Positions 1,543 through 42,136 of a stretch of 42,136 nt of DNA are shown piece after piece. The stretch lies in the IMG/VR virus record IMGVR_UViG_3300042923_000543, positions 1 through 42,136 of that record; one strand, 5' to 3'. A model generated the notes under the pieces. The model made no database searches. It was not told the origin of the DNA and saw only the letters and a program-made list of their open reading frames with translations. Numbering within the stretch: the stretch's first letter is position 1; each line of letters starts with the position of its first letter. Position numbers and translations under genes: made by a program. Source of the DNA: a virus.

Positions 1543-2856
1543 CTAATATCTTCCGCCTCCGGAACTATTTGACCTTTTATTGCTTAAACCTTCGATATAC
1601 TTTCTGAGTTCATAATTTCCATCGACAATAATTGCGATTTCATCATCCGTTAAACTTGAACCATTGAGATAACTCCATACGTCCTCAACCTTATACTTAC
1701 TGGACTTAGTTCCAAGAGCATCCTCCGTGGTAGCGTTCAGCATCTTGTCAATATTGCTGGAATATGTATTGATTTTCTGTTCGCTTTCTTTGGCTTTCTC
1801 CTCTGATTGTTCCTGTGCTACCTTGTTCAAGTAATCAGTCTTAGCCGCTTCTCGTTCAATTCTATCCTGCTCCTGATTATATGCAAACTGTCTTTCCCAT
1901 TGAGAATTATCGGCTGCATCCTGAGACTTGTTATAACTAAATTGCTGCTGCCACTGAGAGTCAGATACCTTATCTCTTGATTTACCATAATCGAATGTAT
2001 CCTGCCACTGCTGGTCACCCACCTGATCACGACCTAACTGATAGTCATAATTTCTATCATCTTCATAAATACCCCTGTCATACTGACTCTGCCACTGGGT
2101 ATCGGCTACGCTATCACGCTCTTTTCCGTAATTGAAATCACGGTCAGTATAATAATCGCCCACGCTATCTCTGTACTTACCGTAAGCGTTATTTTCGAGA
2201 CTCTGAAGGGCTGACAATGAATTGTAATCATTATTCAATTGATTTTGGTAGTTGGCCATAGCAGCCTGGTATAACTCAGGGATCATATTATTTAACTGAG
2301 ACATATGAGCATCATAGGTCTGCTGCCCTGCCGTTGCTCCATATGAATTACCGTATCCTCCAGATAATGCTGCTGCTTCTCCCATGGTGTCACGTAGACC
2401 GAGATTGGCTTGCTGTGTATATTGCTGTTGATACTGTTGATAAGTTGGATCATTTTCCGGATTATAGGAAAAGGGGCCTCTGTTCATAACCTGATTAAGT
2501 ATCGTGTCAATCTGTTGAGTATAAGGGCTATTGTATTCTCCCGGCATGTTATTTTCATTGTTCTGCTGTACAGGCTGAACGTTTGCTAAATTCTGAGTTT
2601 GATTAACAGGATTAATGGAAGCTGCAGGCTGAACCACTTTTTCTTTCTTAACAGGGTTAACTTCTTTCGTTGTACTTTGTTTGGGTGTGCTCTCTGTCTT
2701 AAGCTTATTCAACAGCATTACATTTTGATCTCCGCTGCCTGAATAATTAGAGATCCCATATTGATCTGCTAACTTTTTTCTATTGTTGTAGTCACTATCT
2801 TTTCCTATTGACTTCAAATAATCTACTATGGAGGTATTCGTATTAAGCTTTGGCAT
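1543..2856 (-). CDS. Virion protein with 18-residue helical repeats
   Basis: A 437-residue protein starting at ATG 2856 behind AGGGGGAA, and overlapping the end of the preceding 77-residue gene. Residues 60-110 are a low-complexity Q/N/P linker. Residues 150-200 form a conserved block (around MGEAAALSGGYGNSYG) that I recall from tail-region proteins of gut Firmicutes phages. Residues 225-325 hold five copies of an 18-residue unit (type YGKxRDxVxDxQWQxxFx) plus one shortened 11-residue copy. Eighteen residues equal five alpha-helical turns, so an extended amphipathic helix is likely. The protein is rich in Q, N, D and Y and has no signal peptide. Its position between tail genes and the giant ejection protein suggests an internal or ejected virion component. 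The exact role is unknown. Confidence 0.75.
   Translation of the reverse strand: MPKLNTNTSIVDYLKSIGKDSDYNNRKKLADQYGISNYSGSGDQNVMLLNKLKTESTPKQSTTKEVNPVKKEKVVQPAASINPVNQTQNLANVQPVQQNNENNMPGEYNSPYTQQIDTILNQVMNRGPFSYNPENDPTYQQYQQQYTQQANLGLRDTMGEAAALSGGYGNSYGATAGQQTYDAHMSQLNNMIPELYQAAMANYQNQLNNDYNSLSALQSLENNAYGKYRDSVGDYYTDRDFNYGKERDSVADTQWQSQYDRGIYEDDRNYDYQLGRDQVGDQQWQDTFDYGKSRDKVSDSQWQQQFSYNKSQDAADNSQWERQFAYNQEQDRIEREAAKTDYLNKVAQEQSEEKAKESEQKINTYSSNIDKMLNATTEDALGTKSSKYKVEDVWSYLNGSSLTDDEIAIIVDGNYELRKYIEGLSNKRSNSSGGGRY
1882..2184 (-). repeat. 54-bp tandem coding repeats (18-aa units)
   Basis: Inside the 437-residue gene, units start at residues 225, 243, 272, 290 and 308, each 18 residues. An 11-residue degenerate unit sits at 261-271. 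The conserved skeleton is Y, GK, RD, V, D, QWQ, F/Y. The units have diverged at DNA level, so the expansion is old rather than recent slippage. Confidence 0.85.
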
Positions 2857-5860: not shown

Positions 5861-8851
5861 TCAGTATCTTGCATCGGCACATATATACCCACTGGTAGTT
5901 TTATATAATATCGAATAATTTGCCCCGGCTGAATATGCACCACCGCCAAAAACCATCACAGGCTTGTCTTTGTTAATTGGCCCAGTACTTAATGTGCCGG
6001 TTGCATTTGTGACGTTGGATAAGTCTCTGATCTCCCAATCCGTTCCTCGTGTTCCTGCAATACTAACTATAAAATCTTTCATCAGTGAAGTCGGTATATT
6101 TAATTTTAAAAACAAAGTATCAGACAAACTCACAACAGTTGTTGTATTTGCGTATGAATTGGCCGTTGTTCCAATATCAAAAAATACTTGTTTTTGTGAA
6201 TTAAGTAATTCTTCATAATATGTTGTTGGTCTAAAGTCAAGCGCATTACTGCCTATATCTATTTGTACCTGAGCTATATCAATTACACCTGTGTTAAAAG
6301 CCTCCGAGGTGATTTCTCCGAAACTTGCAGCGCCAATATCGGAACTCCAAGCCATAATAAAACCAATCGAAAGTCTATTGTCGGCACTAACCGTTTTCCC
6401 TGCCAAGTTTTTTGTATGAAGCACAGCAATATACTTTTTCCATTCTGATGTTAGAGTGAATTTAGTTCCGTTAAGTAACTCACTTACTACTCCAGCGGTA
6501 TCGTATATCTGCGTAGCAGTAATACCTATTTTTTTATTCGCGATATTACTTCTGGCATAGAATGAAACCGTTAAGTCCTGTCCACCACAATATAATTTAC
6601 AACCATTCGGTATGATCGTGTTGTCAACTAAATAATTTGTTGTACCTAGTGTCATATCTCCGACCACTTCAACTCTTTTACAATAATCGGATAGTGGCAA
6701 TTCTCCTGCTATGGATTTTCTTGAATGCTTAATACTAGTCGGCGGTGTAGATACTGATAAATTAGTATTCCATATATTGAATACAGGGTATGCTCCACTT
6801 CCTGGGTTAACCACCTCTACCCCTAACGGTATCCTTTGTGCAATTTGGAAATTCCCATCTATCAGTATGCTAGGTACTGGCATTGCTCCATGATTATTAT
6901 TCATTATTCCTAGTAATGGCATTGTTACATTGGCACAATAGTTTGCCGCACCAACCCCATTGCTTGGGCTGATCCATTCGATAGCACCACTAACAAGAGT
7001 AACATTATTCGCTATGCATTCTTTCATTAGTTCAGAGGCAATATTCATATCTTTATAACCTATAACATCTACAACCCACGGGATTGGAGTTGCCCAATAA
7101 CCGCCATTTTGATAAGTTCCATAAGTCGGCTCGGTATAAAATGCATATGCCTCCCATACATGAATGCCATGTTGATATTCTTGACTAATTGGCACATGCC
7201 TTATTGCACCTTTATAGAATATATCTAACCTGTTATTTTTATATGTATTTACTAATTTGTTGGCAATAGCATTAATTCTATCAAATGTAGGAATTCCAAG
7301 ATAAACTGCTAAGCAACTTCCCCATACATCTGGTTGATCTTTGCACAATCCTGTTGAGCACTTAAACAATCCTTCAATGTGCCTCTCTGTTCCATTGTCA
7401 ACTAATGTTTGAGTCCAAAATGTACTATTAATACTATATTTTAGCGTTTCGCATTTTCCCATGTAATAAACTTTGTCAGATACATCACTATTAGCGTTTG
7501 CCAATATTGCTAATTGTGCATATGCCTGATATGCTAAAACACTTATAAAGAATAAATCTCCTGTCATTCTAACAGTATCCCAAAAACCATATGTCCTGAC
7601 TGTAGCATCAACAGGTAATGAAACAAGACCATTATTAGGATTATAAGGCATTCCTAAATCCATTATATTTTTTAACATATCCTTAAATTCAGAATAAAGT
7701 GCAGTAGAACCCGTTTTCCTATAGTATTGATAGAATATATCTATAAGAAATGCTTGATTGTCAAGACTTGATCTACTACCATCTGGAGGCCACCCAATAG
7801 ATCCGTCAAGGAATATCGCATCTGGCACATTATATATAAACACTCCACTTGTCGGTATTCTATCCATAAAAAAGCGAATAATATTTTCTATTTCACTTGT
7901 TGTAAAATAATCTAGATATCCATTCAGCATATAATCGAAATCCCTTGTATATATACCTGCATATCCTCCGGGGTTCCATATTGAAATTGACGGTGTTGTC
8001 GTGGTCGTTTGTTTGGCAATATTTAATACCTTTACTGCAGCATCTAAGATACTGGCATTAAACATATCTATTTTATTTTGCTTCTTGTAATTAAGGATAT
8101 CGATTAGGTCAACAACATTAATAACATCTACCAATTGTGCTTCAATATCAACAATTTTTAGCCTTAAACTGCCTTTGCCTTTTCGTGCATCAATAACCTC
8201 GGAATCTTGCTGATGCTCTGCGGTTAATGTATTAAATCTAGTTTCTATATCTATTATCTTATTTTCTGCATCCTCCGTAGCTGAAAGCGCACCATCCTTA
8301 GCTGAATGGGCTGCTATTGCTGCCGATAGTGCTCCCTGAGCAGCAGCATTGGCATTATTAATCGCATTAGTAGTATTGGTCTGTCTTAATTCCTCTGCTG
8401 CCATTCTGGCAACTTCTCTATTCTCAATTATTACACACCTAGTAACTAATGCTTCATATACCGATAAATCTCCAGTATATTGCCCTGCTGCATCAATGCA
8501 ATCTCCTACAAAGAACGGTTCAATGAATGACTTCCATTTTACCTTTCCCGAAAGATCATTAGCCTTAAGTTGAAGGAAGATAGCACCCTCTGAGCCTAAA
8601 TCATTGGCCGCGATATACCAGGTAAGATCAATCGAATTGTCCGATACTAACATATCTATGAATGCCGTTTCGTTTGTGGTGTTATCTTCATATCGTATAT
8701 CAAGGAAAAACGCTAAAGATGATAGATCTATTTCGTTGGTAATATATCTGGGTATGCGAAATACTCTGATCGATGAATTAGTATCTGTCTCTACTCCTAG
8801 AAATCTTTCCTCCGGTGGAACGATCATCCGTCTGTTTTTTACGGTTATCAT
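5861..8851 (-). CDS. Receptor-binding tail protein with six-hairpin glycosidase-like domain
   Basis: A 996-residue protein. Start ATG 8851 (MITVKNRRM) follows GAGAGGGG; a start further upstream has no site. Residues 1-125 form a beta-rich domain like baseplate/tail attachment domains. Residues 140-270 are alanine-rich helices, a likely trimeric stalk. Residues 290-660 resemble an (alpha/alpha)6 six-hairpin glycosidase, with the blocks YTRDFDYMLNGY, QPDVWGSCLAVYLG, HGIHVWEAYAF, GGYWATPIPWVV and GAIEWISPSNG. Acidic residues in these blocks are candidate catalytic groups. Residues 700-870 look like a carbohydrate-binding jelly-roll, ending at DFRPTTYYEE. The C-terminal 120 residues are beta-rich. 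Inferred role: adsorption and cleavage of a surface polysaccharide. The glycosidase family and substrate are not identified. Confidence 0.78.
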   Translation of the reverse strand: MITVKNRRMIVPPEERFLGVETDTNSSIRVFRIPRYITNEIDLSSLAFFLDIRYEDNTTNETAFIDMLVSDNSIDLTWYIAANDLGSEGAIFLQLKANDLSGKVKWKSFIEPFFVGDCIDAAGQYTGDLSVYEALVTRCVIIENREVARMAAEELRQTNTTNAINNANAAAQGALSAAIAAHSAKDGALSATEDAENKIIDIETRFNTLTAEHQQDSEVIDARKGKGSLRLKIVDIEAQLVDVINVVDLIDILNYKKQNKIDMFNASILDAAVKVLNIAKQTTTTTPSISIWNPGGYAGIYTRDFDYMLNGYLDYFTTSEIENIIRFFMDRIPTSGVFIYNVPDAIFLDGSIGWPPDGSRSSLDNQAFLIDIFYQYYRKTGSTALYSEFKDMLKNIMDLGMPYNPNNGLVSLPVDATVRTYGFWDTVRMTGDLFFISVLAYQAYAQLAILANANSDVSDKVYYMGKCETLKYSINSTFWTQTLVDNGTERHIEGLFKCSTGLCKDQPDVWGSCLAVYLGIPTFDRINAIANKLVNTYKNNRLDIFYKGAIRHVPISQEYQHGIHVWEAYAFYTEPTYGTYQNGGYWATPIPWVVDVIGYKDMNIASELMKECIANNVTLVSGAIEWISPSNGVGAANYCANVTMPLLGIMNNNHGAMPVPSILIDGNFQIAQRIPLGVEVVNPGSGAYPVFNIWNTNLSVSTPPTSIKHSRKSIAGELPLSDYCKRVEVVGDMTLGTTNYLVDNTIIPNGCKLYCGGQDLTVSFYARSNIANKKIGITATQIYDTAGVVSELLNGTKFTLTSEWKKYIAVLHTKNLAGKTVSADNRLSIGFIMAWSSDIGAASFGEITSEAFNTGVIDIAQVQIDIGSNALDFRPTTYYEELLNSQKQVFFDIGTTANSYANTTTVVSLSDTLFLKLNIPTSLMKDFIVSIAGTRGTDWEIRDLSNVTNATGTLSTGPINKDKPVMVFGGGAYSAGANYSILYKTTSGYICADARY

Positions 8852-8928
8852 AATTATTCCCCTCTCTTTCAAAAAAGGAGAATACGACAATCCATATTCC
8901 CCTTCCATTAGTCTTATTTATTCTATTA

Positions 8929-22367: not shown

Positions 22368-22694
22368 TTAATATATCTTTCCTCCCATTAGCCTCCTGAT
22401 GATATCCTCTTTCTGATATAATCCTGCTGCCTGAGGAACACTTCTAAAGTGCGGTTCAAAATACCTTACTGATTTCTTTAGTTTTTGCGATATTTCCTCA
22501 ATTGTGAAGGTTTCTTTATCGAATATCTGGTATAGTTCATCCTGCAGGTCTTTCTTAAGCATTAGATCAACTAATTTATTCATGTGAGGTCCGCTTTTAC
22601 CTTCATGCTGCTCATATGATAGTTCTACCAGGTTTAAAGAAAAGTCTAAGCCTCCTTGACTACGAAATACAATGTGGTGTTTATGCATATTCAT
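22368..22694 (-). CDS. Small HNH-like endonuclease-domain protein, 108 aa
   Basis: Start ATG 22694 overlaps the stop of the PAPS-reductase-like gene (ATGA). Residues 3-31 form a minimal HNH core: HKHHIVFRSQGG, then NLVELSYEQH, with the paired histidines, the central asparagine and a final histidine. The C-terminal half is helical and may bind DNA. Usual CxxC zinc pairs are absent. Phage HNH proteins can assist packaging or act as mobile nucleases. Here the gene is far from terminase, so a modification-linked role is equally possible. Confidence 0.75.
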   Translation of the reverse strand: MNMHKHHIVFRSQGGLDFSLNLVELSYEQHEGKSGPHMNKLVDLMLKKDLQDELYQIFDKETFTIEEISQKLKKSVRYFEPHFRSVPQAAGLYQKEDIIRRLMGGKIY

Positions 22695-23854
22695 TTCACT
22701 CCTGCTGCCATTGAATAAAGATAATCATCCATGTTTATTTGTTTCGGTCTCTTATACCAATCATCTTCCCACCGTATGCCTATATGATTTAATACTCTTC
22801 CCCAACCGTAATGTTCTCCGGTATCTTCATCCTTGCACACTTCATACATCCAGAATTGCCAAGCCTTTGGATCTTCTCTCCTCAACTTATCAAATCTGTG
22901 AGGACGTTTCTCAAGATGAATTCCAAATCCGCATATATCACATCCAGTACGTTGAGCATCAGTAGTGTATAATGTTCCATTCGGCTTTCTTTCGATAGTT
23001 CCGTATACTTCAGGTACCGGAACATTTAAGTCTAGTGCCAACTGTAGAATATCCTGCCTCATAAATGTTGCAAACGGTGCGCTTCGAATAACATCTTTGC
23101 CGTAATAATTGCATCCGTTTTTCATAAGAGCAAATTCCCTTTGACCGCCTTCGGATGCCATAAGACCAAGATAAGGATAGCTTTCATGTTCTCTTGCCCA
23201 TATATCACAAGGATCTTCTTTCATGTACTTACAGCAGTCTGCTGATACATTGTAGTTAGCGCACATACAACATAGATCAGGACGATGATCATTGTAATTT
23301 CCCCCAAATAATTTAATCCATTTATCCGGTAATTTGATTTTATCAGAATGTTCATAATGTCCCTGTTCTCCCATATCGCCTGTCATGATTGCATGTATGA
23401 AAGTTTGTTTCGGATTATCTATTGTCTGCAAATACTCAATTTTGTGAGCTTTTGCCTTGCTTATAACCGGAAACCCTATATCTCTTAGTACCTTATACTT
23501 TGGAATAAGTGGTTTAATCCGCTCAACTCCATAATCATTATGTATTTTCCGGATACTTTTATGTTCCAGCGTTGTAACTCCGATGGCTGGCACCTTTAAC
23601 CCGATTTCTTTCAGAAATATCATTAATGTGATACTATCTAAGCCTCCTATTGATACATGAACGTTTTTCCCTCTGACATTTACTATTTCATCATAAAATT
23701 CTTTGGCACGTTGTTCTGCTCTTCTGATCTTCACCTCATATGGAAGTCTTTGCATTGCAACAAATTTTTTGATATAGTCCTTCTGTTCTTTCTTGGTTTT
23801 CTTATCGGGGATAATCTCTTCATCCATATCAACAAAATCAAGAAGTTCCTGCAT
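22691..23854 (-). CDS. PAPS-reductase-like PP-loop protein, 387 aa
   Basis: ATG 23854 overlaps the preceding small gene (GTGATG). The PP-loop motif VSIGGLDS lies at residues 67-74 (family form SGGxDS), so it probably binds ATP and adenylates a substrate. There is a cysteine cluster around residues 195-220 (CCMC, CC, C) and a CDIC pair near residue 305, which could bind iron-sulfur or zinc. Members of this superfamily include PAPS reductase, tRNA thiolation enzymes and DndC of DNA phosphorothioation. It sits beside two methyltransferase genes, so a nucleic-acid sulfur or modification function is plausible. No other Dnd-type gene is present, so phosphorothioation is not supported. Confidence 0.82.
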   Translation of the reverse strand: MQELLDFVDMDEEIIPDKKTKKEQKDYIKKFVAMQRLPYEVKIRRAEQRAKEFYDEIVNVRGKNVHVSIGGLDSITLMIFLKEIGLKVPAIGVTTLEHKSIRKIHNDYGVERIKPLIPKYKVLRDIGFPVISKAKAHKIEYLQTIDNPKQTFIHAIMTGDMGEQGHYEHSDKIKLPDKWIKLFGGNYNDHRPDLCCMCANYNVSADCCKYMKEDPCDIWAREHESYPYLGLMASEGGQREFALMKNGCNYYGKDVIRSAPFATFMRQDILQLALDLNVPVPEVYGTIERKPNGTLYTTDAQRTGCDICGFGIHLEKRPHRFDKLRREDPKAWQFWMYEVCKDEDTGEHYGWGRVLNHIGIRWEDDWYKRPKQINMDDYLYSMAAGVK

Positions 23855-23955
23855 CACTTACCCTTCTTTCTTTTTCCGTACATAAAAGCATTCATGTTTC
23901 CCTTCTTACTGCTCATTGTTACGGTCTGTACTCCTGCTACTTTTATGAATTTCAT
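23854..23955 (-). CDS. Basic micro-protein, 33 aa
   Basis: A short gene missed by size cut-offs. ATG 23955 follows GGAGGTAATC, and its stop overlaps the next start (GTGATG), so it is translationally coupled to the PP-loop protein. The product (MKFIKVAGVQTVTMSSKKGN to KRKKGK) is strongly basic. Function is unknown; nucleic-acid binding is possible. Confidence 0.65.
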   Translation of the reverse strand: MKFIKVAGVQTVTMSSKKGNMNAFMYGKRKKGK

Positions 23956-23964
23956 GATTACCTC

Positions 23965-25608
23965 CTATGCAAATCTAAGTTGCTGACGACTATCATCAAT
24001 CTGTATATTACCGATACGCTCACCCACCCTGAGATAATAACAATTTGCTTCAGCGAGAACCTTAGACATTGTAGGTACCACCGAATTTCCTATTCTTTTC
24101 ACCTGCTCACTCTTCGGGTATGGTTTACCATTCTTCATAGTAAAGTTGATGATATAATCTTTGGGGAATTCTTGCCCTAGTTTTAGTTCTTCAGCATCCA
24201 GCATCCTGAGATAGATATCAAGTATCGCATATTCATTTCCAAGTACGGTAATAAGGGCAAATCTGTCTTTGGTCACGACAGTGTGTAATGGATCATTAAG
24301 AGACTGCCCTATCCCACATCCGTAATATTCCATGATGAACTGCGATACCCATGTACATTTTTGAGCTGTCTCTGCATCTACTCCATTAGCTATTAGTTGT
24401 TTATAATCAACTGCAAGTATTGAGACTTGTCCGAAATGGCCTGCGCTAGTTGTAATTGTGTGTATCGGCTCGAATAATGATTGACCTATTCCCGTTTTAT
24501 AAAACTTTGTAAGAAAAGCAGCTACTAATGCATACCTTGGTGATGTATCAATAGTCATAATTGGATCCTTGACTGATTGTCCTCTAACTCCACTCTTTGA
24601 TGTTTCAGAATGATACTGAATTAGCATAGGCGATATCAGACAATGCTCATTTTTAGTGACTACCGTTGACATAGGATCTGTGACTGATCGATTTCTATCT
24701 TTAGAAAATCCCGTTTGTCCTATCTGCATGATGTAAGGAGTAACAACTCCATACCCATGTTTTTGTGTAATGGTTGTTATTGGCTCGTGAATGCTTTGAC
24801 CTCTGAAATTATCGCCACCATGATTAACTTGCACTATAAATGGTTCCTTACTGTTGAAAACAAACTTGTCCATACCTGCGCCAATACGGTTCATTGTTTT
24901 ATCTGCCAACGGCTTCTTGCGCCCAAATATGGACTTACCAAGATCATTAAAATTTATATAATCCGCTATTGGCTCCCATTTCTTCAATCCATTGGTACCA
25001 TATCTGTTATGCGTAGGCACTGGCCATACTATTTGCTTATCATCAGATCGGAATACTGCATACCAACGCTTTCTTGTAGTGTGTGCTCCATAATCAGCTG
25101 CTACAAGCTCTTTGCATTCAAACCGAAATCCAAGGTTTTTCATAAGCTTTATAAACTTTTTGTAATACTCACCTTTTCGCTCTTTGATTGGCTTATCATT
25201 CTCATCGAGAGGCCCCCAGTCTTGGATTTCTGCTACATTCTCCATCATTACAACTTCAGGTAAATAACCTGTGACCTCTAAAATCTGCTTACACAGTCGG
25301 TAGACTCCCATTGGTAATATACGCAATCCTCTTTTGATTGGTTTATCACCCTTCGCTCGTGAGTGACTTGTGCAATCCGGAGAAGCCCAAATCATTCTTA
25401 CTCTTTGACCTTTTTTCAGATACTTTCGCAAATCGACTTTAAGCATATCTTCCGTTAGATGCAACGTATCTGGATGGTTTTTCATATGCATTGCAATAGC
25501 ATCCGGATCATGATTAATTGCTATATCAATAGATCTACCAAGAGCCATTTCTATTCCAACGCTTGCCCCACCTCCGCCTGCAAAGCAATCAATGATAATA
25601 TCCTTCAT
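23965..25608 (-). CDS. DNA (cytosine-5) methyltransferase with repeat-rich target domain
   Basis: A 547-residue protein; start ATG 25608 overlaps the stop of the upstream gene by four bases. Motif I is DCFAGGGGAS (7-16). Motif IV is SPDCTSHSRAKG with catalytic Cys79 (PDC instead of PPC). Motif VI is MMENV with Glu123. A motif VIII-like stretch is TTRKRWYAVF. The C-terminal GNSVVP is motif X. Between motifs VIII and IX, about 240 residues hold five degenerate repeats of the type GQSxxDPxxTIxTxxxxxLV, which form the target-recognition region. It probably methylates cytosine in phage DNA against host restriction. It forms a unit with the helicase-methyltransferase gene upstream. Confidence 0.92.
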   Translation of the reverse strand: MKDIIIDCFAGGGGASVGIEMALGRSIDIAINHDPDAIAMHMKNHPDTLHLTEDMLKVDLRKYLKKGQRVRMIWASPDCTSHSRAKGDKPIKRGLRILPMGVYRLCKQILEVTGYLPEVVMMENVAEIQDWGPLDENDKPIKERKGEYYKKFIKLMKNLGFRFECKELVAADYGAHTTRKRWYAVFRSDDKQIVWPVPTHNRYGTNGLKKWEPIADYINFNDLGKSIFGRKKPLADKTMNRIGAGMDKFVFNSKEPFIVQVNHGGDNFRGQSIHEPITTITQKHGYGVVTPYIMQIGQTGFSKDRNRSVTDPMSTVVTKNEHCLISPMLIQYHSETSKSGVRGQSVKDPIMTIDTSPRYALVAAFLTKFYKTGIGQSLFEPIHTITTSAGHFGQVSILAVDYKQLIANGVDAETAQKCTWVSQFIMEYYGCGIGQSLNDPLHTVVTKDRFALITVLGNEYAILDIYLRMLDAEELKLGQEFPKDYIINFTMKNGKPYPKSEQVKRIGNSVVPTMSKVLAEANCYYLRVGERIGNIQIDDSRQQLRFA

Positions 25609-28157
25609 ACTACCTCCTTATCTATCTCAAGAAAGTCAAATAGTGTAGGTGTCTCAATCTGCTCCTCTGCTCCCTTGCAGTAGCCAACACCATCCCTGAA
25701 GTAATCAGAATTGAGTTCTATACCGTATCCGCGTCTTCCATTCTCAATCGCTACCTTAGGTACCGTCATTAATCCGGCGAACATATCAAGTACAGTATCA
25801 CCCTCATTCGAATACCTGTTAATGATCCGCTCCACAATATCAATTTGCAATGGACATACATGCATCTGTAATCTTCTCCGACTCTGGTCTGTATTGAGCG
25901 TTTTCATGCGGTTGATATCATCCCATACCTCATCTGACCAACTGCCAGGTGCTACTACCATGAAGGTTGCTGGAAGCTTGTCCATGGTATCTAATTCCTT
26001 AGCTAGCTGCACATGCTCGTGATAGCTATAGATACTGTTCTTTGAGTACTTACGATATACGTTCTGCAAATTATCAACTGATACACTTGATAACTCATCC
26101 TTACTTACAAGACGATTACCTGAACTTCTCCAGAATGCATGAGCGTCTATCTGCCATTGCGCTCTGGTATAGTCTTCCTTAGTCTTAGTCACCGGATCAT
26201 CTGCATAGGCGGTACTGGTGTCTGATGGAAGCTTGCGGAAGAGAAGAATATATTCCGGGCAACCCACACCCATCTTCGAACCATCCTTACACTGCTCTGT
26301 CCATCCAAGGCGGTAAGTCTGGTTATTCTCTCTTACTACATCCGTGATAACCGTAATCATGCCAAAGTAATGAAATCCATGCTTTATGTAATGATTTATG
26401 CAAATTGCATGGAATGGCTCGATTGTCGGCATTCCTGTGCCGGTTGCATTACCGAATAATACACGGTCCTTAACATGAATTGCCATCACCCTGCCGGGCT
26501 TAAGGATTCTGAAGAGCTCCGGAGTTAGGAAGTCCATCTGCTCGAAGAACATGTCCGTATCTTTGTTATGCCCGAAGTCGTTATAATTTGCAGAATACTC
26601 ATAATGATTACCGAATGGGATTGAGGTATGTATCAAGCCTATGCTGTTACTCTGCATCCTCTTTGTTGCTTCCACACAATCATCATTAACCGCTGTGAAA
26701 TGTTTCCCTTCAACCTTCACTGTCTCAACTCCCATCTTTCTCTTTAATCGTTCGGTTTTATTTGTTGCAGATAATCCATACTTCTTCACAATTGCGATCA
26801 TTTTATTAACCATATAGTTATGATCTGTCCACTTTCTCAATAAGGCTTCTTTGATCTGCCGTTCATTCTCCATGTAAATGATGTCGATAACAACATTTTT
26901 CTTCTGGAGAAAGCGGTAAATCCGGTGAACTGCCTGTATAAAATCATTAAATTCATAATCGATACCAAGGAAGATGGCTCTATGACAATGCTTCTGAAAG
27001 TTACATCCGGATCCTGATAACTCTTTCTTTGTGGCGAAATACTTAATCTTACCATTGGAGAAGTCGATTACCCTCTTTTCCCGTATGTCATAATCCTGAT
27101 TTCCGAAGATATCCACTGCTGCCGGTATGGCTTTCTTTATGGCCAGACGTTCAGCTTCAAGATCATGCCATAAAATGTAGCAGTCATTCGGGCTCTCATT
27201 GAGTAATTCAGCCATTTTTGAGACTCTGGCATCAATGCTCTCACGCTTAATTTGAGCTTCATCCTGAAGTGATACTGCTGCCTCCTGAAATAACATAACC
27301 TGACCGTTCTTATCAGTCTTATCTCCATAGCTGATTGGCAGCTCATGCCACCTTACTTCCATTGGAGGTAGATCATATCCTTCGTCTGAGTAATCCGGAT
27401 TGAGATCCGATGGCATAGTTACAAATAATGCCCAGCTACTCACCCATAACCAGAATTCATCCTCCATATTAGGATATAGAGTTAGGTTATTGGCTTTCGC
27501 GCTGTCTCTCTGGAAGAACCTTGTTAAAGATTGTCCGGTGTCCATAATCTCCAGATACCCGGCATAATGGATTAGCTCTTTATATCGGTTCGGTGATGGA
27601 GTAGCCGTGGCTACCAGTTTATATTTAACTCCCTTGAATTTATCGAGGAAGGTCTGGTATGTCTTAGATCCGAAACTCCGGAGAACAGAGGCTTCATCCA
27701 GTGAAGTTGCGGTGAAGAATGAAGGTTCGATATCTCCATCCCTGACACGTTCATAGTTGGTTATCAAGATATCTCCCGCTGCCTCGTGGACTTCTTGCAT
27801 ATTCCTGACATACTTTGGATGGTCCATGCGAAGTAGCTCAACTGCATCATGAGTGAACTCCTGCTTCACTCCCAGAGGTAAGACAATCAATGCCTTTCCA
27901 CCCTCATGCTTAATAGCCAGCCGGCAGAATTCCAACTCCTGAATGGTCTTACCAAGTCCAAAGCTTTCAAATAGAGCTCTTCGACCGCCCTTTAATGCCC
28001 ACCATACAGCATCCTTCTGGTGAGGCTTCAGGCAGTTTGATATTTCTGATCGGTCAATCTCAATACCACTGTCAGTCGCTATCTCAATTTTGGTATATAG
28101 AAATTCCTCATAGGTCATTATCCTGCCTGCCTTTCTTTTCGCCTGGGTCGTAAACAT
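25605..28157 (-). CDS. Helicase-DNA methyltransferase fusion, 850 aa
   Basis: ATG 28157 overlaps the stop of the preceding gene (TAATG); ATG 28118 is an alternative. Residues 40-430 form an SF2/SNF2-type helicase: motif I SFGLGKT (65-71), motif II LDEAS, motif III TATPSP, and a C-terminal RecA lobe ending at QAVHRIYR (motif VI). Residues 480-850 are an adenine/N4-cytosine methyltransferase in permuted order: motif IV TSIPFGNHYEYS first, then the FAG motif I in VLDMFAGLMTVP near the end. The catalytic motif reads SIPF instead of the usual (D/N/S)PP(Y/F). From memory this variant is shared by phage relatives. Inferred role: modification of phage DNA with translocation. Anti-restriction or a link to replication is possible. 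Confidence 0.88.
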   Translation of the reverse strand: MFTTQAKRKAGRIMTYEEFLYTKIEIATDSGIEIDRSEISNCLKPHQKDAVWWALKGGRRALFESFGLGKTIQELEFCRLAIKHEGGKALIVLPLGVKQEFTHDAVELLRMDHPKYVRNMQEVHEAAGDILITNYERVRDGDIEPSFFTATSLDEASVLRSFGSKTYQTFLDKFKGVKYKLVATATPSPNRYKELIHYAGYLEIMDTGQSLTRFFQRDSAKANNLTLYPNMEDEFWLWVSSWALFVTMPSDLNPDYSDEGYDLPPMEVRWHELPISYGDKTDKNGQVMLFQEAAVSLQDEAQIKRESIDARVSKMAELLNESPNDCYILWHDLEAERLAIKKAIPAAVDIFGNQDYDIREKRVIDFSNGKIKYFATKKELSGSGCNFQKHCHRAIFLGIDYEFNDFIQAVHRIYRFLQKKNVVIDIIYMENERQIKEALLRKWTDHNYMVNKMIAIVKKYGLSATNKTERLKRKMGVETVKVEGKHFTAVNDDCVEATKRMQSNSIGLIHTSIPFGNHYEYSANYNDFGHNKDTDMFFEQMDFLTPELFRILKPGRVMAIHVKDRVLFGNATGTGMPTIEPFHAICINHYIKHGFHYFGMITVITDVVRENNQTYRLGWTEQCKDGSKMGVGCPEYILLFRKLPSDTSTAYADDPVTKTKEDYTRAQWQIDAHAFWRSSGNRLVSKDELSSVSVDNLQNVYRKYSKNSIYSYHEHVQLAKELDTMDKLPATFMVVAPGSWSDEVWDDINRMKTLNTDQSRRRLQMHVCPLQIDIVERIINRYSNEGDTVLDMFAGLMTVPKVAIENGRRGYGIELNSDYFRDGVGYCKGAEEQIETPTLFDFLEIDKEVV

Positions 28158-28408
28158 TATAGGTTCTTCGCATATCGTTCCCTCCATTGTGATTTGTTCT
28201 GAGTAAATGGTATCTTATCGGCTGATACCCTTTCCCATCCTTCCGGCATCTGTATGAGCTCAGGCTTCTCTATTTCAATCAGACTCATAATTGAACCTCT
28301 ATTTCCATCTAATCGGCAGCAAGTATACAGAAAACAAAATTCGCATTGTTCCTGATTACAATTGGTAATTAGAATCTTAGCTTCTTCTTCGCTACAAATT
28401 ATTTTCAT
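28157..28408 (-). CDS. Cysteine-rich small protein, 83 aa
   Basis: ATG 28408 (MKIICSEEEAKILI) lies six bases after GGAGG. It overlaps the end of the RNase H-like gene and the start of the fusion gene. Cysteines cluster at residues 5, 19, 22, 25, 30 and 31 and suggest metal binding. The C-terminal part is amphipathic. Unknown function; the tight coupling suggests an accessory to the neighbouring DNA enzymes. Confidence 0.65.
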   Translation of the reverse strand: MKIICSEEEAKILITNCNQEQCEFCFLYTCCRLDGNRGSIMSLIEIEKPELIQMPEGWERVSADKIPFTQNKSQWRERYAKNL

Positions 28409-33035: not shown

Positions 33036-34619
33036 ATGGCAAGGTATGCGATATATTTAAGAAAATCTAGAGCTGATGATAGCAACTCATCTGTTGAAGA
33101 AACTCTTTCACGACATGAAGCTCTTCTTCTTGAAACTGCTAAAAGAATGCAATTAAATATTGTAGATATATATCGCGAAGTTGTATCAGGAGAAAACATT
33201 ATTGACCGTCCACAAATGCGACTTCTTTTAAATGCAATTGATGAAGGTAAATATGATGGTGTATTAGTTGTAGAAATAGAGCGCTTGGCTCGTGGTAATT
33301 CTATAGATCAAGGAATTATAGCTCAAAGTTTTCAATTATCAGATACCAAAATTATAACTCCAAATAAGATTATTGATCCCAATAATGAGTTTGATTCTGA
33401 AGCTCTTGAATTTGGGTTGTTTATGTCTCGTAGAGAGTATAAGACAATTAACCGCCGTATCCAGCGTGGTCGTATTGCTTCAGCAAATGAAGGGAAGTTC
33501 CTCGGTTCCACTGCTCCATATGGTTACGAGCGTGTAAAAATATCAGGCGAAAAGGGATATACTCTTGCTTTAGTTCCTGATCAGGCAGATGTCATTAACA
33601 AGATCTTCGAGTGGTATACCATCGGTGATTTGCAACCGGATAACACTTATCTCAAATTAGGTGCTACTAGAATAGCTCGAAAGTTGAATGAACTTGATAT
33701 AAAACCTCTGGTCAATGATAAATGGACCAAGTCTTCTATTACCGACATTCTAAAGAACCCTGTTTATATAGGTATGATCCGCTGGTCCTATCGTAAAGAG
33801 AAAAAGATTGCAAAGGATAGTAAGATCTCTAAGGTTCGAAGGAAATCGGAAGAATACATCGAAGTGAAAGGTCTACATGAACCCATTGTCAGTGAAGATA
33901 CCTTTAAAGAAGCGCAATCTATCATATCCAAAAGAGGTCATGCACCTGTACCTGGTGGCAATGTACTTAAAAATCCTCTTACCGGATTAATCTATTGTTC
34001 CAAGTGTGGCTCCTTAATGACTAGGCTAGCACAAAACACTAAGACACCGTATGATACTATCAAATGCCCGAATGTGTATTGTGACAACATCTCGTCTCCA
34101 CTCTATCTCGTGGAAGAGGTTGTTATTGATGCCTTACGTAATTGGCTTATTAATTTCAAAGCGAAGTGGGAATCCGAGAGAGTTGATATGCCTTACTCTA
34201 AGGCAATTAAAGATGCGGCGGCAGTTCTGGAGCAACTGAAATTAAATCATGAGAAATTAAATGCTCAAAGAGATAAACTATATACCCTTTTAGAACAAGG
34301 AGTGTATTCGATCGATATCTTTAAAGAGCGTAATAAGAAATTGGAGGATGAAAAAGAACGCTTGTTATCACTTATTGATAAGACCGAAATTGAGATATCA
34401 GCATTAGCTCAACAGTCTAATTACAATGATATATTTATACCCATGGCTGACAATATCCTAACTCATTATTATGATCTTCCGACTGCTGCCGCTAAGAATG
34501 ATGCTTTACGAGATATCGTATCTAGCATCAGTTACCTGAAAACAGAACATAACAAGAAGGGGAACCGCGATAATACAAACTTCACAATCAGCATAAACCC
34601 TAAGGTTGTTGATATTTAA
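33036..34619 (+). CDS. int: Large serine integrase
   Basis: A 527-residue protein with start ATG 33036 behind GGAGGTG. Residues 1-145 are the resolvase catalytic domain: Ser11 in YLRKSRAD is the nucleophile, and ERLARG contains active-site arginines. The recombinase domain follows (APYGYERV, NPVYIGMIRW). A zinc ribbon starts at CSKCG and ends at KCPNVYC, around residues 325-350. A coiled coil spans about 385-465. It catalyses attP x attB recombination for integration without host factors. A directionality factor for excision is not recognised here. The gene has its own control region. Confidence 0.95.
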   Translation: MARYAIYLRKSRADDSNSSVEETLSRHEALLLETAKRMQLNIVDIYREVVSGENIIDRPQMRLLLNAIDEGKYDGVLVVEIERLARGNSIDQGIIAQSFQLSDTKIITPNKIIDPNNEFDSEALEFGLFMSRREYKTINRRIQRGRIASANEGKFLGSTAPYGYERVKISGEKGYTLALVPDQADVINKIFEWYTIGDLQPDNTYLKLGATRIARKLNELDIKPLVNDKWTKSSITDILKNPVYIGMIRWSYRKEKKIAKDSKISKVRRKSEEYIEVKGLHEPIVSEDTFKEAQSIISKRGHAPVPGGNVLKNPLTGLIYCSKCGSLMTRLAQNTKTPYDTIKCPNVYCDNISSPLYLVEEVVIDALRNWLINFKAKWESERVDMPYSKAIKDAAAVLEQLKLNHEKLNAQRDKLYTLLEQGVYSIDIFKERNKKLEDEKERLLSLIDKTEIEISALAQQSNYNDIFIPMADNILTHYYDLPTAAAKNDALRDIVSSISYLKTEHNKKGNRDNTNFTISINPKVVDI

Positions 34620-35446: not shown

Positions 35447-36331
35447 TTAATTATCAGTAAATCTAGCTATAGTCTTTTTACCGGCTGCCCATCCATCGTT
35501 GTTGCCATCTTTATTCCATCCCCATGCTTCCCACGCGAACAAAACAGATATTCTAGTCTTATTATCATAGATGCCATTGAGTTCAAGAAAATAAGGACCT
35601 TCTAATTCATTGAGTCTTGTCTTTAACCAGTTAATATCATTCATTGAGGACTTTGGAGTGATTGTCTTGGATGGTATGTATGTTTCCGGTATGTACTTGA
35701 CTCCGGTATACTCACAGACTCCACGACAGATCTCCTGCGCACACTCCTTCCAGAATGCTTCGTTGATCATCATGGTTGTTGCTTCATGTTCATTAGTCAT
35801 AAAAGCCAGTTCCACGAGAATTGCCACCTTGACACTCATGGCATTGCAGTTACACATAGCCAATGATTGCTTACTTATTCCACGATTGGTTTGCTTAGTT
35901 CCCTCGGCCAGATGCTTTAATACTACTGCTGCCAGTTTATCTGATTGATCTGCATGCTTGTCATGGATATAGATACCCACTCCCTTAGCCGTATTAAAGT
36001 TCTTCCCATCACCAAAAGCGTTAAAGTGAATAGATATACTCATATCACAGTTGGCTTTCACTATGGCTGCCTGTCGAGCTGACAGAGCAGTGTCCGGATC
36101 GTCAGTTGCATTATCATCATTAAATCCCGTTATCATGATATTGTAACCACAGCGTTTCAACTCCTTGACCAAAAGATTAGCAACTCCAACATTGGCATAA
36201 TGCTCCCGGTACTGCTCACCTTTTTTTATATCAGATTTTCCATCTTTATTTATGTCTAAATCAGCTGGCATTGGAGGAGTTCGCTTACCTGCTGTGAAGG
36301 AACCATGTCCTGCATCTACATTAATCAACAT
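35447..36331 (-). CDS. Endolysin, N-acetylmuramoyl-L-alanine amidase
   Basis: A 294-residue protein. The amidase_3 domain (residues 1-205) shows zinc ligands His9 (VDAGHG), Glu43 and His102 (SISIHFNAF), and the catalytic Glu174 (LVELAFMTN). The C-terminal 75 residues (INWLKTRLNELEG, NGIYDNKTR) resemble a peptidoglycan-binding helical repeat and should hold the enzyme to the wall. There is no signal peptide, so release depends on the holin, whose gene overlaps its start by 11 bases. It is the last gene of the late operon. Confidence 0.93.
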   Translation of the reverse strand: MLINVDAGHGSFTAGKRTPPMPADLDINKDGKSDIKKGEQYREHYANVGVANLLVKELKRCGYNIMITGFNDDNATDDPDTALSARQAAIVKANCDMSISIHFNAFGDGKNFNTAKGVGIYIHDKHADQSDKLAAVVLKHLAEGTKQTNRGISKQSLAMCNCNAMSVKVAILVELAFMTNEHEATTMMINEAFWKECAQEICRGVCEYTGVKYIPETYIPSKTITPKSSMNDINWLKTRLNELEGPYFLELNGIYDNKTRISVLFAWEAWGWNKDGNNDGWAAGKKTIARFTDN

Positions 36332-36908: not shown

Positions 36909-39900
36909 TTATTTGATCAATTCCAATAGATCTTTCTGACTCCATCCGGCAGCTCTTAACTTATTATATATAGGCTCCCACTTTGACCGATTTCCGGTCT
37001 TGTAAGCTTCTATAAATTCTTCTGTGTTAGGAGCATCCGCTGTCAACTTCTCTTTTCTTAGAAAGTTAATCGCCCACTGAATATCATCCACCGAATAACC
37101 TTCATCAATTAGCTTCTTTCTGCCTGACTCATATACTTTTGCATCCTTTTTACTATAAGCCTCATAGATTTCTGTAATGATTGGATTTGTGAATTCTTCA
37201 TCTTTCTTCCGTATTATCAAGCCCTCACGCTTTCGACTCTGCATTGCCTCCGCAATACTTGACGGCTTCTTTCCTGATTTTATCAGATCACTATATATCT
37301 GCTTATACAGGGTGGTATCTCCTTCAATTTTTGCTTTATAAAGCATGTCGTAATAATCACCAGTAGAGGAAGAACTGCCTGCTGTCGGATGTTTTGTCTG
37401 AAGTTTTTCATATTCCGACATACCCTCCAGAATCCCTATGCTCTCTAATGCCCCCTTGCTGTTTCGCCACACCATCTCAATATCCTTAGATATATTTTTG
37501 AGCGGTACATTGAAGAACGGTGCAATAGCTTGAGTAATCTGAAGAACCTTTTCTTGGGTTGAGTACTTATCACTGTCCAGTTTGTTCCATGCATAATACA
37601 GATTTTGGAATAGCTGCATATCCGGTCTGATCGGTTCATATCCCTTAAAGACGGATACTACAGAATTCACATATGGTATCATACCGGCCGGATCATCCAT
37701 AAGATTTTTTATAAAACTATTCAGATACTTTTCTCCATAGGTTTTATCTTCATCCTTATCTCTACCAGCTGTGATGATTGACTTAAGCAATGAATTCAGT
37801 ACCATAGCACTTATTACAGCTGCAACACTTCTGGTCACATATGGAGTTGCACTCTTACCATCTTTCTTAAATGTGTTTAGAGCATCATACAGCATATTAT
37901 AACTTACCGTAGGCTCTGCCATGAAGTTAGTAGCCAGTTTCGCTCCGAAGTTCTGAGATCTCATTAGTTCACTTCGCTGGAATACAGAGTCCATTACCTG
38001 GGACCGGTCTATTACTTCTTTAAACCGCTCCTTGCAGTGGTCATAAAAATTCTCATTGCCTTCTTGCAAATTAGTAGTATCCTTGGTCTCTGCTTTTACT
38101 GCATTCCATATATATGCCCATGTAACCTCATCCATCTTTTGAGGAAGCCAGGAGAATACTTCATTCCTTACATTTTTGTCAGTAAAGAAGGCTTTCATTT
38201 TATCCAATGGTCCGTCATATTCTTGTTCTGTTACAATGTCTGATAGACTCCTACCCATATTCACATCAAAATAACCATACTGCTTAAGCTTTGCCTGAGG
38301 GCTATACTTAATTAATTCATCATAGTTTTTCTTTGTGAATGCTGATTTGATAAAATACTTCGGGTCAATTATTACAAAAGCTCTCGCTATAGAGGAAGGC
38401 TGCTGAATTGCTACGGACAGATTACCCATTACTGCATCTACTTTCATTTTCGATAACAGTAGATTGGATAATTCACCACCCACATCTTGCTTAATGCCTC
38501 CATTAATATCAATGAGTAATTTTTCAATGTACTTATTGGCTTCCGGTCCGTATGCTTTTTTGATTGAATTTTTTACCGAGGTTTCCTCACCTGTCATTTT
38601 ATCTTTATACTTATAATTCCATACCTTCTGTAAGTCCTCCAAAGGAAGAACTAATGCATTATACATTGACATATCAACAAGGTGTTTTGACCATATTTCC
38701 ATAAAGCCGGCCGCAATGATAGGATTACTTGCATTGCGAACAGTTGGCTTTGTGAAGGACATTCTCTTAATTCGCTTATCATCTGTTACCCCGGCTCTGG
38801 TATTGAGGAACGACCGATCAGAGGTTAATGGAATATAGTTCTCTTCCATGTAAGCATCCAGACCAAATAACTTATTTGCAACCTCGTTTCCTAGTTTTGA
38901 TAGATCACTAGAAAGATAATCAACCATTTCATAAACAAATCCTTTTTGTTCTTCGGTTAATGTCTCTTCCAGTTTCTCCATATCCTTTTCAGAAAATTGA
39001 ACCGGATCTGATTGATAGGTTACTTTTTTAATCACTTTATTTCTGCCTTTACCCTCTGTCTCAATCTTAGGTTCTTCCGCTACAACACCACCCTTAAGTA
39101 TATGTTGCTGACCTTGTTTTCTTCTGAACGCAGCATAGATATATAATTTTTGCTCTGTAGTCAATGATATCTTAGTACCTTTCACGGTAGCAAACTCAGA
39201 TTGCTTATCATTCGCCCATGAGAAGTAATCATATTTCTTAATCATCTTATGTGCAAATTCATTTCCGCTCTCAAAATTCTTTACAAACTTATCCTCACCA
39301 TCTCGTAGGTTCTTATATACTTTTTCAAAATCTCCTCCAATTTTCTTAAAAAAATAATAAGGCTTAATATTACCTTTCGTCAGCATGTTAACAAAAGCAT
39401 TTACACCTTTGTTGTTTGCAGATAAATTTGATTGTGAATACTGTCCTTCCTTTGCCATATGATTGATAATTGATTCACCTGTCATAGAAAGAGTCTCTCT
39501 CAAATTCTCTGCGAACGTCTTATTTTCTTGGTTGATCAGATGTTTAATGTGCTTCAGAAGATCATAAACCGCCTTAAGCTCTTCATGATTGAGTTGGTTC
39601 ACCCTGCGACCCTCTGCTATTGCAGCCAGATCCTTTATGTCAGACTCAACATTTTCAAAATACAGACTATTCAAATTATCATCGTCAATATCCCGAAGTT
39701 CAGAATAAGCATCTTTCAGTTTTCTCCATTTTAAAGCTGCTTGCGAAGGTTCCCCACTCAGAGTACCGCTTTCAAAGTCTAGTATCTGAAGTAGTTCCTT
39801 AATGGACTGGGTAAATCCTTTTGGTAAGTGACTTTTCTCTGAAGGCTTAAGAAGCATATCACTTAAATCCTTTGCAATTTTCTTGATCTGTCCCTTCCAC

Positions 39901-42136
39901 TTATTTGCTTCCACTGTCCTATTCCTTCTTTCTCTGGCATTTTCCATTCGCTCAGAAAACCTCTGCTGCTGTGCTTCTAACTTTTGCAGGTTCTGGTCTC
40001 TAAGCTTCTGTACCTGGAGCCGATAGGCTTCTTTCTGCTCAGCTGTGGCAGTCTTTGAATTTTCTACTATCTCCGCTATCTTATCCTCGTTTTTTTTCTT
40101 AATAAGAGATAATCTCTCATTATATTTCGCTTTGTAATCTTCTCGAAGTTCTCTTACATTCTGATTATATCTTGCCTTTAATTTAGCTAATTCGGACTTT
40201 TTCTTATCTGCAAATGTAGCAGGTGCCTGCCTGATATCAAAATAAGCAGATGATATAATTTCATATGCAAGATCTCTGGACGCTTCGTCTATGCTCATTC
40301 CGTAAGGATTGTAATTGATAGGCTTGATAAAGTCTATTACCTCGGCTATCTTAATCAGTTGATCGGCAGGATGGGTGATCTCATCACCGAAGAATTCCGG
40401 ATGTTTTTCGGAAAGTCTCATATAAAATTCATCTACCGCGATACCATCACTTGCCACTAACTTGATTTTACCAAAATACTTTCTGCGGAAGTTATTAAAG
40501 CCACCTTCAGAAACCATATCAAGCCTATCCTTTGAGGATAATATGATTGGTGTCTTTTTGATTTCATCCAGCATGTCCTTTGAGTTTTTAACTAAGGTAT
40601 CATCCGTAACAGAGGACTTCTTTAATATCATCTTTGCCATGCTCTGTACTGCCTCGATAGCTTCATCCGTATACATTGACTCACTATGATTATGTACATA
40701 CTTCCAGATGGTTTCAAGGTTCTCTACCACATTGCCAACATCATAGGAACTTTGAGCTTTCTTTAGGATCTCATTAGCGGCTTTGGTTAACTGCTTTTTA
40801 TCCGGTGTTAGCTCGTTAGTGACCTTGAACTGCTGATTAAGCAGAGCATTGATCTCACGAAGTTTACGGTTCTCCTGATAAAGGCGATTATAATCTTCGC
40901 GATCAATTTCTTTGAGCTGGAGCCTTGCACCTTCTGGAATGGAGCTTATATTCTCTCCTGTTGAATTTGATAATGCTTCAACCCATAACTTCTCAGCTTC
41001 CTTTACACTGTTCAAATTCTCATTTAATGCTTTTGCTGCTTTGCTTCTTGGTTCCAAGCTTGACAAAGCTTTTTGCATTTTACCGATTAGATCTCGGATT
41101 ATATCTACTACCTTTTCAGCTAATGATTTATCAGTTTTTGCAAGTCTTTCAATACTCTCTTCATCGGTTAAAAACATTTCTGAAGCATCTGCAACGATCT
41201 CATCCATCGCCTCATCCCTGGTTATTGATTGTCCAATCTCGGTATAACGAGAGATAAGGTTATCAACCATATCATTGTAAGCCTTGGGATTGCTCTTGTT
41301 AATTTCAGAGATAACGAAGTTACGATATTTCGTATAAAGCTCCGGAGAATTATCCTGAATTGCATGGGTTAATTCGTGCTTTGCTACGGTCAAATACGGA
41401 TTGTCGGAATCTAATGCAATTGACATTATACCATTCCGGTACATTCCATTTGCTAAGCCACCGGCGATACTGTCTTCAATGCGGATTTCCGTCTTTGAGA
41501 TCTTTCCAAGTTCATTCAATGCCTGGAGTGTATCGGTATCCATCCTTAAGGCCGCCGGGCTCTCCACTACTCCATATGTTTTATTGCCTTCAATTATCGG
41601 TTGCACCTTTTCCATCTTTGCATCATTCAAGCCAGAGTTATATGCATTTAGTCTTATGCTTTCCTTCAGAAGAGATCCATAGGCACTACTAACCTTGTCT
41701 AGTGGAAGGTTAACCAATCCAGCATCGTAATAAGCAGAAAATGCCTTCTGATAACTTTCTACCTCTAGTTCCTCGTTATAATTGGATATGAAGGCTTTCG
41801 CTCCATTGGACTTATAATTTTCTGACTTGGCGATAACCTCATTTGCATTATCGAATGATTTTTCTATGTCGTTTTTAGGATCATTTACATTCATTGTGGG
41901 AGAATTGGTAACCTGAGTATCTAAAGCTTCTGAGCGAAGGCCAGGCGAGTTCTGACGAGTGTTTTTAGCATACAAAGAGGTATCCACTCGGCTTTGTAAT
42001 GGAGCACCGTGTTCCGCAAGTCTGGTTATTTGACCGGATTGATAATTTGATACCCTCTTACCTTCCTCTTTCGCGGTCTGAAGATCAGAAGACTTTCGAT
42101 AGTATTCCGAAGTCTGATCTGTAGCTAATCCCTGCT
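36909..42136 (-). CDS. Giant virion/ejection protein, C-terminal part, with zincin motif (2,210 aa in full)
   Basis: Continuation of the gene at 1-1532; joined at the circular junction it has residues 1-2210 and stops at 36909. Residues 722-726 are HELTH in a VAKHELTHAIQD context, and DEIVADASEMFL about 60 residues later may give the third ligand, so a zinc peptidase domain is likely. Coiled coils span roughly residues 1110-1230. The block LLKPSEKSHLP and the C-terminal region (AAVISAMVLNSLLKSIITAG, then DDPAGMIPYVNSVVSVFKGY) match domains of the large polyvalent protein type seen in Firmicutes phages. The latter contains a membrane-like segment. Inferred role: ejected protein that helps DNA cross the envelope. 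Confidence 0.88.
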   Translation of the reverse strand, partial: QGLATDQTSEYYRKSSDLQTAKEEGKRVSNYQSGQITRLAEHGAPLQSRVDTSLYAKNTRQNSPGLRSEALDTQVTNSPTMNVNDPKNDIEKSFDNANEVIAKSENYKSNGAKAFISNYNEELEVESYQKAFSAYYDAGLVNLPLDKVSSAYGSLLKESIRLNAYNSGLNDAKMEKVQPIIEGNKTYGVVESPAALRMDTDTLQALNELGKISKTEIRIEDSIAGGLANGMYRNGIMSIALDSDNPYLTVAKHELTHAIQDNSPELYTKYRNFVISEINKSNPKAYNDMVDNLISRYTEIGQSITRDEAMDEIVADASEMFLTDEESIERLAKTDKSLAEKVVDIIRDLIGKMQKALSSLEPRSKAAKALNENLNSVKEAEKLWVEALSNSTGENISSIPEGARLQLKEIDREDYNRLYQENRKLREINALLNQQFKVTNELTPDKKQLTKAANEILKKAQSSYDVGNVVENLETIWKYVHNHSESMYTDEAIEAVQSMAKMILKKSSVTDDTLVKNSKDMLDEIKKTPIILSSKDRLDMVSEGGFNNFRRKYFGKIKLVASDGIAVDEFYMRLSEKHPEFFGDEITHPADQLIKIAEVIDFIKPINYNPYGMSIDEASRDLAYEIISSAYFDIRQAPATFADKKKSELAKLKARYNQNVRELREDYKAKYNERLSLIKKKNEDKIAEIVENSKTATAEQKEAYRLQVQKLRDQNLQKLEAQQQRFSERMENARERRNRTVEANKWKGQIKKIAKDLSDMLLKPSEKSHLPKGFTQSIKELLQILDFESGTLSGEPSQAALKWRKLKDAYSELRDIDDDNLNSLYFENVESDIKDLAAIAEGRRVNQLNHEELKAVYDLLKHIKHLINQENKTFAENLRETLSMTGESIINHMAKEGQYSQSNLSANNKGVNAFVNMLTKGNIKPYYFFKKIGGDFEKVYKNLRDGEDKFVKNFESGNEFAHKMIKKYDYFSWANDKQSEFATVKGTKISLTTEQKLYIYAAFRRKQGQQHILKGGVVAEEPKIETEGKGRNKVIKKVTYQSDPVQFSEKDMEKLEETLTEEQKGFVYEMVDYLSSDLSKLGNEVANKLFGLDAYMEENYIPLTSDRSFLNTRAGVTDDKRIKRMSFTKPTVRNASNPIIAAGFMEIWSKHLVDMSMYNALVLPLEDLQKVWNYKYKDKMTGEETSVKNSIKKAYGPEANKYIEKLLIDINGGIKQDVGGELSNLLLSKMKVDAVMGNLSVAIQQPSSIARAFVIIDPKYFIKSAFTKKNYDELIKYSPQAKLKQYGYFDVNMGRSLSDIVTEQEYDGPLDKMKAFFTDKNVRNEVFSWLPQKMDEVTWAYIWNAVKAETKDTTNLQEGNENFYDHCKERFKEVIDRSQVMDSVFQRSELMRSQNFGAKLATNFMAEPTVSYNMLYDALNTFKKDGKSATPYVTRSVAAVISAMVLNSLLKSIITAGRDKDEDKTYGEKYLNSFIKNLMDDPAGMIPYVNSVVSVFKGYEPIRPDMQLFQNLYYAWNKLDSDKYSTQEKVLQITQAIAPFFNVPLKNISKDIEMVWRNSKGALESIGILEGMSEYEKLQTKHPTAGSSSSTGDYYDMLYKAKIEGDTTLYKQIYSDLIKSGKKPSSIAEAMQSRKREGLIIRKKDEEFTNPIITEIYEAYSKKDAKVYESGRKKLIDEGYSVDDIQWAINFLRKEKLTADAPNTEEFIEAYKTGNRSKWEPIYNKLRAAGWSQKDLLELIK
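42010..42136. repeat. Terminal direct repeat, copy 2 (circular overlap)
   Basis: Exact copy of 1-127. It lies inside the giant virion protein gene, at codons about 468-511 of the joined frame. See copy 1 for interpretation. Confidence 0.95.

Follow-up and report, generated by a model that had tools for sequence, protein, structure and literature searches.

Does the long tail protein encoded on the minus strand of an IMG/VR virus record of 42,136 bases (the window, that is, the whole stretch of DNA that was analysed) carry a helical-barrel enzyme in the place of the beta-helix that is usual in tailspike depolymerases, and what would such an enzyme do? The question was raised by a sequence-only reading of the locus, which proposed a tail receptor-binding protein with an embedded six-hairpin glycosidase-like domain. 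With a probability of about three in four, we conclude that the protein is the tailspike of a temperate phage of gut or rumen Clostridia and that the enzyme it carries is a glycoside hydrolase of the six-hairpin (alpha/alpha)6 type.

The open reading frame spans positions 5861-8908 (minus strand, 1015 aa); residue numbers used here count from this longer frame, in which the Met at 8851 is residue 20. The ATG at 8851 is a likelier start than 8908 because it is preceded by a strong Shine-Dalgarno element and because the match to the PHROG_25888 profile opens exactly at residue 20, so that the gene end given by the sequence-only reading is the better one. The gene and its domains are as follows.

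5861..8851, minus strand: tail receptor-binding protein or tailspike gene, 996 aa from the Met at 8851, in structural cassette position
8859..8866, minus strand: Shine-Dalgarno-like GAGAGGGG (gaGAGGGG, strong), about 7 nt upstream of the ATG at 8851
8270..8851, minus strand: virion-anchor-like N-terminal domain with the first part of the Ala-rich stalk, residues 20-213 (PHROG_25888, E 2.3e-24)
8090..8413, minus strand: Ala-rich helical stalk, residues ~166-273, judged by eye from the sequence
6863..8089, minus strand: glycosidase-like domain of the six-hairpin (alpha/alpha)6 type, residues 274-682
6200..6880, minus strand: beta-sandwich of carbohydrate-binding-like type, as is common in tail fibres, residues 677-903 (match to the tail fiber profile PHROG_4492, E 6.8e-16)
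5864..6199, minus strand: C-terminal tip domain, residues 904-1015, with a weak PHROG_30607 match only (E 0.0048)

The protein thus runs from an N-terminal domain over a helical stalk, an enzyme-like domain of helical blocks and a beta-sandwich to a C-terminal tip. The beta-sandwich region resembles tail fibre proteins of Stenotrophomonas phages (27% identity). The enzyme-like domain lies between stalk and sandwich, where it had been placed before, and its length of about 400 residues exceeds the roughly 370 estimated at that time. Both the position in the structural cassette and the virion-type flanking domains are those of a tail receptor-binding protein or depolymerase. In the arrangement that we propose, the PHROG_25888 domain would act as virion anchor and dock on the tail, the stalk would extend the enzyme outward, and sandwich and tip would bind a glycan on the host surface.

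The gene is flanked by two conserved structural genes within a region of head and tail genes. For the terminase, portal and capsid genes of the window there are relatives in 69 viral contigs and also in loci that resemble prophages, most of these in gut and rumen Clostridia, the group proposed as hosts. A temperate lifestyle is suggested by a large serine recombinase/integrase gene (33036-34619, plus strand; PHROG_95), the main temperate sign; a search for tRNA genes within the window found none. At the tailspike spot the gap between the flanking genes has a median of 51 bp in 89 relatives, as against 3.1 kb in the window. Where relatives have larger inserts, these hold tail-like proteins of other kinds, which have stalks or repeats resembling collagen (L002, L059), or another long ORF (L062). 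From the gap sizes and the varied inserts the spot looks like a site of tail-protein swapping. No homologue of any domain of the tailspike was found in the set of phages sharing the conserved position (L002-L150).

Elsewhere the window encodes a 1692-aa protein (36909-41987, minus strand) that matches PHROG_22978 (E 7e-297), a profile of 3513 positions to which no function is assigned. A cluster at 22691-28187 (minus strand) comprises a PAPS-reductase-like protein (PHROG_424), a DNA methyltransferase and a helicase/methyltransferase, and possibly serves DNA modification or counter-defence. Two genes are lytic-enzyme-like, one for an L-Ala-D-Glu peptidase-like protein (1543-2856, minus strand) and one for an endolysin (35447-36331, minus strand; PHROG_435).

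On its own, the domain sequence is nearly mute. Single-sequence searches of Pfam, NCBIfam, PHROGs and the PDB returned no match, with no Pfam family at E <= 10, and no relative came from peptide-pattern scans of viral and genome contigs, from tblastn against phages and plasmids, or from a sample of 398 genomes from the phylum that presumably includes the host. The first relatives emerged from 395 sampled Bacteroidota genomes (L153, E 7.6e-25; L154, 5e-10; L155, 9e-9). L153 keeps the phage motifs in series: RD, GF.D...TGD, Q.DVW...LA.YL, YKG.IRHV, TYQNG.YWATP and E.I.PS. A two-row profile found viral relatives, one of the viral relatives being matched by profile at E 3e-46, and broader profiles then found more. 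Two weak genome matches were rejected as AAA ATPases on the basis of their motifs. Seven phage rows were aligned (A7), and a wider set holds 13 phage and bacterial rows. Given the independent bacterial and viral matches, together with the model and the fold matches described below, the similarity is beyond chance. With the window domain and five viral members as tblastn queries, the 50,697 deposited phage genomes yielded no relative.

Structure prediction depended on this alignment. From the single sequence AF2 reached a pLDDT of 37, and a fold search on that model was meaningless; with A7 it gave a pTM of 0.80, a mean pLDDT of 68 and exactly twelve helices, although pLDDT fell below 50 in the loop with the TYQNGGYW motif and in part of the E644 loop. 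Twelve helices are the number expected of six hairpins. Foldseek returned 152 PDB matches at E <= 0.001 (best E 1.2e-8), and the best 50 of these 152 are all (alpha/alpha)6 glycosidases or their relatives, headed by GH100 invertases; GH100, GH116, GH78, GH37, GH63 and GH125 are represented among the matches listed. VIA-align likewise placed GH100 invertases first (Z 32, 363 of 409 residues, 3.6 A), with GH94 and GH116 at Z 28; after GH100 the order of structural matches was GH116, GH94, GH63, GH37 and GH78. The model is thus a helical barrel and not a beta-helix, as had been anticipated from the letters alone. Among the significant matches in a viral structure library there was no named phage tail protein, and two matches were nameless.

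Independently of the structure, the sequence profile matched 3cih (GH78, 6.5e-6), 1v7v (GH94, 9.3e-6) and InvA (GH100, 1e-3) in the PDB. A match to CpcN was discarded as the sum of sub-threshold repeats. Against the single sequences of TreA and YgjK the profile showed a similarity too weak for catalytic residues to be transferred from them, and this attempt was dropped. Taken together, the profiles, the twelve-helix model and the PDB fold matches bear out the proposal of a tail receptor-binding protein with an embedded six-hairpin domain, which by predicted fold and conserved acids belongs to the (alpha/alpha)6 glycosidase superfamily.

Sequence conservation converges on one end of the predicted barrel. 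Nineteen of the 21 residues invariant in the seven phage rows lie in the loops preceding inner helices 2, 4, 6, 8, 10 and 12, an enrichment at one barrel end with a hypergeometric p of 2e-4. Six acidic columns are kept in at least six of the seven phage rows, and all of them fall in these mouth loops, in accordance with the earlier expectation of acids at the barrel mouth. The positions are listed below.

7940..7942, minus strand: D323 in the WxRD motif, ahead of inner helix 2; unchanged in every phage and bacterial row
7820..7822, minus strand: D363 in the PDxI motif; an acid in six of seven phage rows
7760..7762, minus strand: D383 in the DNQAF motif, ahead of inner helix 4; unchanged in every phage row
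7577..7579, minus strand: D444 in the GFxD motif (YGFWDT), between helices 5 and 6; putative general acid
7328..7330, minus strand: D527 in QPDVW, preceding inner helix 8; nearly invariant
7094..7117, minus strand: TYQNGGYW signature, ahead of inner helix 10; its counterpart in the alignment with InvA (GH100) is YHNGGNW
6977..6979, minus strand: E644 in GAIEW, between helices 11 and 12; putative general base

Of the three blocks in which the sequence-only reading had sought functional acids, YTRDFDYM (D323) and GAIEWIS (E644) hold conserved ones; WGSCLAV has no acid, the nearest of invariant type being D527 just upstream. D383 and D444 had been missed, and D444 is the most important of all. 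Together with D323 and E644 it is invariant across all 13 phage and bacterial rows.

In the profile alignment D444 pairs with D492 of the chitobiose phosphorylase 1v7v, which we take to be the general acid of that enzyme. Its location between helices 5 and 6 is shared with the general acid of GH63, GH37 and GH94, the 'A-prime' position (PMC7263609). In InvA the catalytic residues are D188 and E414 (PMC6995568), and the HMMER alignment places D188 one column off D444 inside an ungapped stretch; on this alignment the two residues are likely equivalent. E644 lies toward the C-terminal end of the barrel, a position that fits the general base of GH37/63/100-type families. By helix topology and alignment, D444 and E644 would therefore correspond to the acid/base pair of inverting enzymes of these types, with D444 protonating the leaving sugar and E644 activating water.

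The conservation of this pair also bears on whether the domain cuts at all. It could be a former glycosidase that now serves as a lectin and recognizes a glycan without cleaving it, as phage tail proteins often retain binding without cleavage, and a separate binding-like sandwich already follows the domain. We consider this unlikely: D444 and E644 are kept in 13 of 13 rows despite identities of only 21-30%, and a pure binder would need neither. Still less probable is a different chemistry on the same fold, either that of a GH94-like phosphorylase or that of an alpha/alpha-toroid polysaccharide lyase. The phosphorylase can point to chitobiose phosphorylase 1v7v as the second profile match and to the Z of the GH94 structures, yet phosphorylases lack a catalytic base, phosphate being the nucleophile, whereas the putative base E644 is invariant here, which argues against this reading; moreover, a virion outside the cell has no need for phosphate coupling. 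No lyase appears among the best fold matches listed, an absence that excludes nothing.

We favour a glycoside hydrolase, and infer catalysis, hydrolase chemistry, an inverting mechanism, a host-surface substrate and exo trimming. Exo trimming is preferred over endo cleavage because the structural neighbours have pocket-shaped sites.

The bacterial homologues (L153/L184-L188, L154) share about 23-34% identity, keep the key motifs and fall into one joint alignment. They differ from the window protein in that most of them have a single domain and are secreted (to judge by eye from their signal peptides), and they are often encoded in SusC/SusD loci. Domain genes adjoin SusC/SusD genes in L178 (6272-18696), L179 (354-7239) and L204 (1-10067); in L178 GH28 genes and, somewhat farther away, a sulfatase gene are also near, and the gene order FecR-SusC-SusD-GH28 was seen. 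These neighbourhoods speak for glycan cleavage as the role, whichever the sugar. Maximum-likelihood analysis groups the five main bacterial rows in a separate clade (support 100/100), and the phage rows are deep and scattered in the tree, with a branching order that is uncertain owing to long branches. A family common to glycan-eating Bacteroidota and to phages probably means that the phage domain trims a sugar polymer of the host surface; during adsorption the helical barrel would cleave or trim this glycan.

Further relatives occur in at least five other phage types, in portal and capsid (L169, L170), head-tail adaptor and capsid (L171), and phi29-like upper collar and tail contexts (L175), in tail fibres of 91-139 kb contigs (L173, L174), and downstream of a sheath-like gene (L181; Pfam E 1e-6, slightly below the curated cut-off). 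Contig L174 has four adjoining large tailspike-like ORFs (L174:1422-15345). Two neighbouring tail proteins of L174 share 272-residue N-termini that are 62% identical and have different bodies, one of them with the six-hairpin domain; judged from these sequences, the pair directly documents that modules are exchanged while the anchor is conserved. The recurrence of the domain in several unrelated phage types suggests that whole enzyme folds are swapped on conserved tail anchors.

Since the bacterial relatives are secreted enzymes, one might also think of a moron, a secreted host enzyme acquired by the phage that acts after infection or in nutrition rather than in the virion. This is very improbable in view of the in-frame fusion to the PHROG_25888 N-terminus, the stalk and the tail-fibre sandwich and of the location amid head and tail genes, and the relatives in L174 and L181 are likewise long multi-domain tail-type proteins. 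The tailspike assignment is therefore retained.

How does the domain compare with named enzymes? The closest solved fold is that of the GH100 invertases (InvA and InvB of Anabaena, Arabidopsis CINV; about 360 residues aligned), and the domain has the NGG.W signature and the acid/base topology in common with InvA (PMC6995568). However, identity to InvA and InvB is only 11-15%, the domain has no GH100 Pfam match, and InvA is sucrose-specific and no tail protein, whereas the window domain is part of a virion-type fusion. With GH78, GH94, GH63, GH37, GH116 and GH125 the (alpha/alpha)6 fold is shared, and sequence similarity is local and weak. Pfam models of six-hairpin GH families match neither the domain nor its relatives; the Bac_rhamnosid6H (GH78) model matched no phage or bacterial member in a search in which the GH78-type L156 scored 1.9e-29. 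As GH100 and GH78 profile matches are missing, it seems best to regard the domain, together with its relatives, as an unnamed family, which may belong to a CAZy family more recent than the libraries that were searched.

With beta-helix tailspike depolymerases the window protein shares the order of anchor, stalk, enzyme and binding tip and modular swapping on a conserved anchor; the difference lies in the enzymatic fold, a right-handed beta-helix being common among depolymerases without being obligatory (PMC11326577). The helical barrel itself has precedents among phages. DepoScope assigned 11 of 984 phage depolymerase candidates to the alpha/alpha-toroid, the fold class of the window domain, and omitted them from training because of their low number; to its authors' knowledge some uncommon folds have never been studied in phages (PMC11326577). 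Literature searches turned up no other report on alpha/alpha-toroids in phage proteins. The DepoScope toroids came from INPHARED and appear to represent other families because the window domain and five of its relatives were unmatched, at tblastn sensitivity, in the deposited phage genomes. The idea of a new type of tailspike enzyme accordingly holds for the family and not for the fold: alpha/alpha-toroid depolymerases are known, though rare (PMC11326577), and the domain adds a new family to a kind already known. What is new is this family, its recurrence in several phage types, the lack of tblastn matches to it among deposited phage genomes, its putative catalytic pair and its PUL-linked relatives.

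A bolder proposal, for which we see even odds, is that the domain establishes a glycoside hydrolase family not yet described, with a phage-tail and a Bacteroidota PUL branch, acts on a glycan for which there is no known enzyme, and has been recruited repeatedly by phages as an exchangeable module in place of the beta-helix. Tools that look for phage depolymerases have been trained with beta-helices, propellers and triple helices and would probably miss the family, given that it matches neither library models nor deposited phage records. D444 and E644 offer a concrete putative catalytic pair for testing, and the Bacteroidota gene neighbourhoods can guide the search for the substrate. If active, the domain would be a new tool for cutting the surface glycans of gut Clostridia.
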